Origin: Botryosphaeria dothidea
Taxonomy: Eukaryota > Ascomycota > Dothideomycetes > Botryosphaeriales > Botryosphaeriaceae
Reading direction: 5' to 3'
Assembly: GCA_011503125.2 (NCBI GenBank)
Contig: WWBZ02000016.1
Coordinates: 1,426,001-1,490,000 of the forward strand
DNA: 64,000 bases
The notes under the pieces are model-generated. The model was not told where the DNA came from. It ran no database searches and saw nothing but the letters and a program-made list of their open reading frames with translations. Position numbers and translations under genes: made by a program. Each line of letters starts with the position of its first letter. Within the stretch, counting starts at the first letter, position 1. This document shows, one piece after another, positions 25,332 through 61,202 of the stretch.

Positions 25332-25419
25332 GGTCTTGTGGTCTAGTGGTATGATTCTCGCTTAGGGCAAACCCTGAGTTGCTTGCGAGAGGCCCCGCGT
25401 TCGATCCGCGGCAAGACCC
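25332..25419 (+). tRNA. tRNA-Pro(AGG): tRNA-Pro (anticodon AGG), ordinary intron
   Basis: Acceptor GGTCTTG pairs fully with CAAGACC (25412-25418); discriminator C at 25419. The D arm GTCTAGTGGTATGAT is uninterrupted. Anticodon stem CTCGC/GCGAG; anticodon AGG at 25364-25366. A 16-nt intron follows position 37 (25368-25383). T stem CCGCG/CGCGG with loop TTCGATC. TTTT at 25424-25427 can stop polymerase III. This is the normal reference for the two interrupted tRNA-Pro genes. Confidence 0.95.
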
Positions 25420-26906: not shown

Positions 26907-27027
26907 GGGCTCAGCCGGGGATCGAACCCGGGGCCTGTCACATTTCAAGCTTAGATGCTTTCTAGACCTCTTAAGAGGACTGGGAACACTACCCGAAGCG
27001 ACAATCATACCACTAGACCACTGAGCC
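26907..27027 (-). tRNA. tRNA-Pro(CGG): tRNA-Pro (anticodon CGG), ordinary intron only
   Basis: On the minus strand acceptor GGCTCAG pairs fully with CTGAGCC, discriminator C. The D arm GTCTAGTGGTATGAT is continuous. Anticodon stem GTCGC/GTGAC. The anticodon CGG is followed by G37 and a 49-nt intron (26943-26991) containing the palindrome CCTCTTAAGAGG. T stem CCGGG/CCCGG with TTCGATC. TTTT follows on the minus strand (26899-26902). The 5' flank CGCTTTCAAT and the intron are shared with the interrupted gene at 46446-46675, so the two are paralogues. Confidence 0.94.
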
Positions 27028-46117: not shown

Positions 46118-46452
46118 GCAGCCGGGAGGATGTTCTGTTCATAGAAGGAAAGAAAGGGGCTGTGGCGGCAGGCAGCGCGCCGGGGGGTGAGGCGCATAAG
46201 AGATCACACGCAGCGTCGTCGTCGACACAGTCGTACGCGTCGTCGTCATCGTTCGCCGTCTCTCACGCGTTCCTGACGCCTTCCAGCGGCCGGGTCAGGG
46301 TCTCTCGCTTAGCACGTTTCGCGGGCCGCTAGTCGCCCACGAAATAAGTCGTGGCCGTTTCCCCATATAATCCCAAATCTTCAGCCCCGAAATCAACCAA
46401 TCACATCAAGCCACTCCGGATATAAATCTGGTCTTCGCTTTCAATGGCTCAG

Positions 46453-46463
46453 TGGTCTAGTGG
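46453..46463 (+). promoter_or_regulatory. polymerase III A box
   Basis: TGGTCTAGTGG matches the A-box consensus. The first base of the D-loop insertion supplies its last G, so the box stays intact despite the insertion. Confidence 0.75.
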
Positions 46464-46512
46464 TAAGTTACATCATTCCGGATGTAAAAATCACAATTCT
46501 AATGCCTAAAAG
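46463..46512 (+). other. spliceosomal-type intron in tRNA D loop
   Basis: 50 nt starting GTAAGTTA, with branch-like TTCTAAT about 10 nt before the end and ending AAAAG. It lies between tRNA positions 18 and 19; deletion rejoins GTCTAGTG and GTATGATT. Confidence 0.72.
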
Positions 46513-46601
46513 GTATGATTCGCGCTTCGGGTAGCGTTCCCAGTCCTCTTAAGAGGTCTTGAAAGCAATATAAGCTTGAACTGTGCGAGGTCCCGGGTTC
46601 G

Positions 46602-46659
46602 GTAAGACTTTCCCAAGTTCGATTCCTGTAGTGGAACCTGTAAACTAACGGACATGAAG
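46602..46659 (+). other. spliceosomal-type intron in tRNA T loop
   Basis: 58 nt starting GTAAGACT, with a perfect CTAAC branch motif (AAACTAACGG) 12-14 nt from the 3' end and ending GAAG. It lies between positions 57 and 58; deletion rejoins GGTTCG and ATCCCCGG. Confidence 0.72.
46616..46626 (+). promoter_or_regulatory. B-box-like element inside the T-loop insertion
   Basis: AGTTCGATTCC matches the polymerase III B-box consensus GGTTCGANTCC at 10 of 11 positions. The host B box is split 15 nt upstream, so this copy could replace it for TFIIIC binding. Confidence 0.6.
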
Positions 46660-46686
46660 ATCCCCGGCTGAGCCCTATAACCGATC

Positions 46687-46691
46687 TTTTT
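46687..46691 (+). terminator. polymerase III terminator (T5)
   Basis: TTTTT 12 nt downstream of the interrupted tRNA-Pro; a second T-run follows near 46718. Confidence 0.7.
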
Positions 46692-48049: not shown

Positions 48050-51144
<3,095 letters not shown>

Positions 51145-61059: not shown

Positions 61060-61202
61060 GGGCCCAACCGCGATTCGAACGCGGGACCTCTCGCAATTCA
61101 GGCTTCAAAGCTGTCCCAAAGCGAGAATCATACCTGATTCTGTTAGAATTGATGCATCTTCGTTGGAAAATCATGTTGAACATACCACTAGACCATTAGG
61201 CC
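61060..61202 (-). tRNA. tRNA-Pro(TGG): tRNA-Pro (anticodon TGG) with ordinary intron plus D-loop insertion
   Basis: Minus strand. Acceptor GGCCTAA pairs with TTGGGCC (one G-T pair), discriminator C. The D loop is split between positions 18 and 19 by a 52-nt GT-AG insertion (61134-61185). Removing it gives GTCTAGTGGTATGAT, as in the other tRNA-Pro genes. Anticodon stem CTCGC/GCGAG, anticodon TGG at 61116-61118 (minus strand), ordinary 19-nt intron after G37 (61096-61114). T stem CCGCG/CGCGG, loop TTCGAAT; A box and B box are both intact. T4 terminators follow. It is the only TGG tRNA-Pro in the window; if few copies exist in the genome it should be functional, which would require removal of the insertion. 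Confidence 0.87.
61134..61185 (-). other. spliceosomal-type intron in tRNA D loop
   Basis: 52 nt on the minus strand, starting GTATGTTC, with TTCTAAC (branch A about 9 nt before the end) and ending ATCAG. It occupies the same site as the insertion at 46463-46512 and shares CAATTCTAA near its 3' end with it. Confidence 0.78.

Follow-up and report, generated by a model that had tools for sequence, protein, structure and literature searches.

In the D arm and the T loop, a set of nuclear transfer RNA (tRNA) genes of the ascomycete Botryosphaeria dothidea appears to carry U2-type spliceosomal introns, and from the sequences we put at about 0.86 the probability that such genes are transcribed by RNA polymerase III (Pol III), freed of these introns by the spliceosome and matured into normal tRNAs. 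The case centres on a tRNA-Pro(CGG) gene in a 64,000-nt stretch of contig WWBZ02000016.1 (positions 1,426,001 to 1,490,000; hereafter the window), which is interrupted by an ordinary position-37 intron and by two ectopic introns (Table 1). An earlier, sequence-only reading of the window had described these two inserts as starting with GTAAG, holding CTAAT or CTAAC and ending in AG, and had held that their deletion, together with that of the ordinary intron, gives a tRNA. Both points are borne out. Specifically, the genomic interval 46446-46675 yields no gene with ARAGORN, which calls a tRNA-Pro(cgg) and in it a position-37 intron of 50 nt after deletion of the two inserts.

A DNA search of the same genome with the interrupted gene returned a single relative, a paralogous tRNA-Pro(CGG) at 26907-27027, 19 kb away. 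The alignment of the two breaks at both inserts; its two long pieces show 89% identity each, and the ordinary intron falls within one of them. Because this paralog lacks precisely both ectopic introns, the inserts are more than a product of chance. The original observation also widens beyond one gene, to a second interrupted tRNA-Pro gene in the window (61060-61202), to a genome-wide set and to a B box borne by the T-loop introns.

Table 1. Positions of the features discussed, numbered within the window unless another locus is given.
Feature	Position	Strand	Remarks
tRNA-Pro(CGG) gene, three interruptions	46446..46675	+	no tRNA recognised until both ectopic inserts are removed
Ectopic intron 1, D loop, 18/19, 50 nt, GTAAGT...CTAAT...AAAAG	46463..46512	+	absent in paralog 26907-27027
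Ordinary position-37 intron	46533..46582	+	register +/-1; common to paralog 26907-27027
Ectopic intron 2, T loop, 57/58, 58 nt, GTAAGA...CTAAC...GAAG	46602..46659	+	absent in paralog 26907-27027
TATA-like element TATAAA	46421..46426	+	about 25 nt upstream of tRNA-Pro(CGG); putative role
A box TGGTCTAGTGG	46453..46463	+	final G is first base of intron 1; box stays whole
B-box-like AGTTCGATTCC	46616..46626	+	within intron 2; candidate replacement for the B box split by intron 2
T5 run	46687..46691	+	Pol III terminator-like
Paralogous tRNA-Pro(CGG)	26907..27027	-	without both ectopic introns; ordinary intron kept
tRNA-Pro(TGG)	61060..61202	-	one ectopic D-loop intron
tRNA-Pro(TGG) ectopic intron, 18/19, 52 nt, GTATGT...CTAAC...CAG	61134..61185	-
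Intact tRNA-Pro(AGG)	25332..25419	+	16-nt position-37 intron; its three interrupted sisters are on C5 and C58
ATP sulfurylase gene part, six mRNA introns	48691..50107	-	introns 50049-50107, 49813-49898, 49732-49784, 49496-49548, 49295-49343, 48691-48739
Initiator tRNA-Met, second copy, 56-nt GT-AG insert at 24/25	L003:607-734 = G000:C47:1330625-1330752	+	sole new gene of the splice scan

Genome-wide set of ectopic introns

Pattern searches and a splice scan of the genome (51.7 Mb, 78 contigs) yielded 17 ectopic introns in 14 tRNA genes for Pro, Ala, Asp, Val and initiator Met (iMet), a lower bound, since only some isotypes were searched individually. The introns lie at position 18/19 in Pro(CGG), Pro(TGG) and three Pro(AGG) genes, at 24/25 in two Val(CAC) genes, where the site was set by counting from the D stem, and in iMet, at 57/58 in Pro(CGG), one Pro(AGG), two Ala(CGC) and four Asp(GTC) genes, and at 60/61 in one Val gene; none of them occupies the canonical 37/38 site. 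Two Pro genes and one Val gene hold two ectopic introns each, and position-37 introns are also present in most of the interrupted genes.

In the splice scan, each candidate intron (GTRNG, 40-79 nt, YTRAY, AG) was removed and ARAGORN was asked for a tRNA spanning the junction. Across 337 kb, 533 single and 45 paired removals led to 14 distinct spliced sequences, all from tRNA genes, which represent 12 genes or groups of identical genes, two of them with a second possible donor as well; the 337 kb consist of 170 overlapping sources picked mostly by tRNA-like patterns, a non-random sample that gives no genome-wide rate. Within the window, single removals (GTRNG, 45-74 nt, YTRAY, AG) produced one junction-spanning tRNA from 67 candidates, the Pro(TGG) gene. 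After intron removal, 11 of 13 genes were named as expected by ARAGORN, iMet having been found separately by the scan; on the unspliced genes the program returned nothing for 10 of the 13 and either miscalled or misplaced the other three. Re-pairing of the T stem is by itself a weak test, passed by chance at 4 of 20 non-tRNA loci, and the tRNA identity therefore rests on the whole gene.

The pattern searches gave few tRNAs among many matches. Donors other than GTAAG at 57/58 had 42 matches (151 in the reversed-pattern control), with no tRNA among the four inspected and GTGAG outside the search. The D-loop donor pattern had 36 matches, five of them already known (four of these being tRNAs), and 14 more that were inspected added one tRNA (L125). 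This same gene, by then known, was the sole tRNA among the 30 matches of CGTTCRGTAAG, the other 29 of which were checked by script. Seven of the 15 matches of GTAAGN7GTTCGA are known tRNA loci (one a duplicate), and eight are not tRNA loci already known. Copies on C78 and C3, identical over 3 kb, were left out as assembly duplicates. The assembly seems partly redundant, with collinear stretches common to C36 and C78 (offset about 885,680) and to C3 and C12 (offset about 1,699,485).

Rfam gave no match in the window at the gathering threshold or at E<=1, and its silence on the interrupted Pro gene is uninformative because intact Pro genes with position-37 introns are missed equally. On nine loci searched in the same way, intact Asp scored 44 bits and interrupted Asp had no tRNA match.

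Other arrangements were seen around these loci. Four tRNA-Pro genes with three different anticodons stand within a 36-kb part of the window (25332-25419, 26907-27027, 46446-46675 and 61060-61202). On the minus strand of L017, about 200 nt beyond an interrupted Ala(CGC) gene, lies an inverted stretch resembling the 5' half of Ala-tRNA with no recognisable counterpart of the 3' half; it may be an inverted copy that has broken. L123 and L129 hold an A-box-like stretch followed by GT...CTAA-like sequence with no tRNA fold by eye, and may be tRNA-derived repeats.

Splice signals, promoter elements and intact sister genes

All 17 ectopic introns are 50-61 nt long and have the form GTRNG...AG, a uniformity that arises partly by selection, as the GTRNG donor and the AG were built into most search patterns, some cases having been found with no donor in the pattern. 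The donors are GTAAGT (9), GTAAGA (4), GTGAGT (2), GTATGT (1) and GTAAGG (1), and the acceptors TAG (7), CAG (5) and AAG (5). Additionally, each intron contains a YTRAY motif with 9-12 nt after its A (10 and 11 nt in introns 1 and 2 of the tRNA-Pro(CGG) gene), namely CTAAC in 10, CTAAT in five, CTGAC in one and TTAAC in one. No search other than the scan that yielded iMet demanded this branch-like motif; shuffled intron bodies have it in 0.8 of 17 on average and in five at most, and reversed introns in none.

For comparison, the window holds part of a gene that we take, by eye from its protein sequence, to encode ATP sulfurylase. The lengths of the inserts in tRNA-Pro(CGG) had been said to match the mRNA introns of the window, which is true in part: the six introns in this gene measure 49, 49, 53, 53, 59 and 86 nt. 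A YTRAY motif with 9-14 nt after its A occurs in five of the six, the donors are GTATGT, GTGAGC, GTGGGT and GTGCGC, and all six acceptors are CAG. The match between ectopic and mRNA introns is thus close but not perfect, in a sample of one gene.

Ectopic introns in the D and T arms of tRNA genes are known from archaea, Cyanidioschyzon merolae and nucleomorphs, where either the tRNA splicing endonuclease or some unknown route excises them (PMC4090602, PMC3978253). Removal of the B. dothidea introns by this endonuclease is very unlikely. The sequence-only reading had named a clear bulge-helix-bulge at both junctions as the structure that would point to this enzyme; when a strict 4-bp central helix between 3-nt bulges was looked for in all allowed registers, it was found in 0 of 17 introns (about 1.5 of 17 in shuffles), with at most three of the four central-helix pairs formed. 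Moreover, the endonuclease leaves the uniform GT-AG ends, the branch motif and the length of the introns without explanation.

The promoter elements of these genes add a further pattern. Introns at 57/58 cut the B box in two, and all eight of them contain TTCGA near the 5' end, as GTTCGA in seven and as ATTCGATTCC in the Pro(AGG) gene of C58. When these introns are shuffled, the motif appears in 0.1 of eight on average and in two at most; it is found in none of the nine ectopic introns at other positions, and within 60 nt of 3 of 49 non-tRNA donors. Introns at 18/19 keep the A box whole because their first G completes it. The A and B boxes are judged here against their general consensus sequences. 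Runs of T4 to T11 begin within 20 nt downstream in 13 of 13 genes measured, and T6 follows iMet. Overall, the interrupted genes possess an A box, a B box and a terminator, although not every box fits the strict pattern: for the A box the two Ala genes (AGGGG) escaped it, and for the B box ProAGG_C58 (ATTCGA) and Val_C1. The combination of A box, replacement B box and T run would be hard to explain if these genes were not transcribed by Pol III.

Intact and interrupted sister genes stand side by side in several families: four of seven Asp genes are interrupted and three are intact, Pro(AGG) has three interrupted genes and one intact gene found, and the Val T-loop intron is present in one of two distinct genes. 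In line with the pair of Pro(CGG) genes, precise presence or absence between paralogs holds for Pro(AGG), Asp, iMet and the Val T-loop intron. Such exact absence is compatible both with a recent gain of the introns and with their loss by way of a spliced intermediate.

We propose a maturation route in which, in the order given, Pol III would transcribe the interrupted genes from internal promoters, the A box being whole and an intron that destroys the B box supplying a replacement; the spliceosome would then remove the D-arm and T-loop introns from the precursor, and tRNA endonuclease and ligase would remove the position-37 intron to leave a normal tRNA. Transcription by Pol III, spliceosomal removal and use of the product in translation are what we infer from the genes themselves.

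Constraint on exons and alternative readings

The four Asp introns are homologous and 53 nt each, and differ pairwise at 10-18 of 53 sites. Invariant among them are the 3' AG and, as the longest blocks, CGTTCGAA, GTAAG and ACTAA. In the Asp exons, 0-2 of 76 aligned sites differ (the 72-nt tRNA plus a few bases from the ends of the position-37 intron), and the excess of intron over exon divergence is significant in all six pairs (Fisher p 6e-4 to 1.5e-8). In the three Pro(AGG) pairs, none of 88 sites in the exons and position-37 intron differs, against 20-30 of 55-56 sites in the D-loop intron. In iMet and Pro(CGG), the changes between interrupted and intact genes are largely compensatory: the six differing sites between interrupted and intact iMet (L030) form three compensatory pairs, and of the five sites that separate interrupted Pro(CGG) from its paralog outside the position-37 introns, four make two compensatory anticodon-stem pairs (C-G/G-C and G-C/T-A) and one lies in the variable loop. 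These are signs that the interrupted genes are kept functional.

The same data bear on the idea that insertions have reduced the interrupted copies to unused pseudogenes, which we regard as highly improbable. Intact synonymous copies for Asp, Pro(AGG), Pro(CGG) and iMet, together with a stem mismatch in Asp_C47, speak for it. Yet it is the introns and not the exons that have diverged, every change in a stem between the interrupted and intact forms of iMet and Pro(CGG) is compensatory, and the splice signals and the B box are conserved within the inserts. Additionally, among D arms with at most two mismatches from the search pattern, there was no uninterrupted gene for Ala(CGC), Val(CAC) or Pro(TGG); copies diverged further, as well as an intact Val of the C16 type, would escape this range, and the codons concerned might be read by other isoacceptors.

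It is extremely improbable that the loci are kept as TFIIIC-binding boundary or insulator elements, in which introns are tolerated and no tRNA is needed. The A and B boxes, those within introns as well, are indeed among the preserved parts, but preservation extends to the acceptor and anticodon stems, which lie outside the boxes and covary, and to the splice signals.

Several observations weigh against spliceosomal removal and maintained function. A GTAAG donor is present in 14 of the 17 ectopic introns and in none of the six from the ATP sulfurylase gene; AAG acceptors account for 5 of 17, as opposed to CAG throughout that gene, whose 86-nt intron is also the one that has no YTRAY. In a published B. 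dothidea strain the mean intron length is 116 bp (PMC7325678). Among the spliced genes, Val_C1 was called Leu(caa) by ARAGORN and Asp_C36 was left undetermined, and the mismatch in Asp_C47 breaks a T-stem pair. A looser B-box pattern, GTTCRA, adds the D-loop intron of Pro(TGG) and loses Pro(AGG) of C58. The identity of exons might owe something to gene conversion, intact genes or wobble could in principle supply all isotypes, and all results come from the one B. dothidea genome.

Taken together, a spliceosome-like nature of the ectopic introns, as the sequence-only reading had suggested for tRNA-Pro(CGG), is the reading best supported by the splice signals in 17 of 17, the exact absence in paralogs, the lack of a bulge-helix-bulge in any of the 17 and the signs of maintained function. 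What the sequences show directly is the anatomy of the genes, the exact presence or absence of introns in paralogs, the conservation of the splice signals and of the B box, and the constraint on the exons.

Relation to known systems and consequences

Removal of nuclear tRNA introns is ascribed to tRNA endonuclease and ligase. The canonical eukaryotic intron at 37/38 co-occurs with the ectopic introns in most interrupted genes and differs from them in position, ends and presumed enzyme. Another likeness is offered by the U6 small nuclear RNA gene, transcribed by Pol III, which has mRNA-type introns in fission yeast and some basidiomycete yeasts. Here too, spliceosomal introns sit in a short non-coding Pol III gene; U6 is, however, not a tRNA, and its internal promoter is not known to have a substitute within the intron. 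In B. dothidea, the best U6 match (87.3 bits) runs for 103 nt over all 105 model positions and thus has no intron. A second, weaker U6-like match lies at L067 (G000:C18:304005-304103; 59.6 bits).

Non-canonical introns are supposedly rare in eukaryotic tRNA genes and are known from nucleomorphs and C. merolae, as PMC4090602 has it. The same text describes, in the Guillardia theta nucleomorph, D-arm and T-arm introns, several per gene, whose excision was seen by reverse transcription PCR; these are 3-24 nt long and leave by an unknown route, whereas those of B. dothidea measure 50-61 nt and have a complete set of splice signals. Archaea and C. merolae likewise have introns at non-canonical tRNA positions, with a bulge-helix-bulge that the B. 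dothidea ectopic introns lack (PMC4090602 and PMC3978253 for the known cases). In the open-access literature, a coverage that leaves out most subscription papers and preprints, we found no description of spliceosomal introns in tRNA genes or of an intron-borne B box.

The interrupted genes are likely to represent a class of tRNA gene in eukaryotes that depends on the spliceosome for maturation and whose T-loop introns harbour the Pol III B box, which is discarded along with them. Spliceosomal tRNA maturation and an intron-borne B box would be categorically new; on a stricter view, they would extend the occurrence of mRNA-type introns in Pol III genes. Another B. dothidea strain is credited with 137 tRNA genes in PMC7325678, which also names small-RNA reads for the species (SRP174595) that could test the splicing.

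If the proposed route is true, a second pathway of tRNA maturation would exist beside that of endonuclease and ligase, a Pol III promoter could move into an intron, and the supply of tRNA would be linked to the activity of the spliceosome, for which uncapped Pol III precursors with tRNA folds would be routine substrates in B. dothidea. The intact and interrupted sister genes provide a natural system for the study of intron gain and loss. Because ARAGORN missed or miscalled every one of the 13 unspliced genes given to it, standard tRNA finders can miss interrupted genes of this kind, and such genes may have been overlooked in other fungi.
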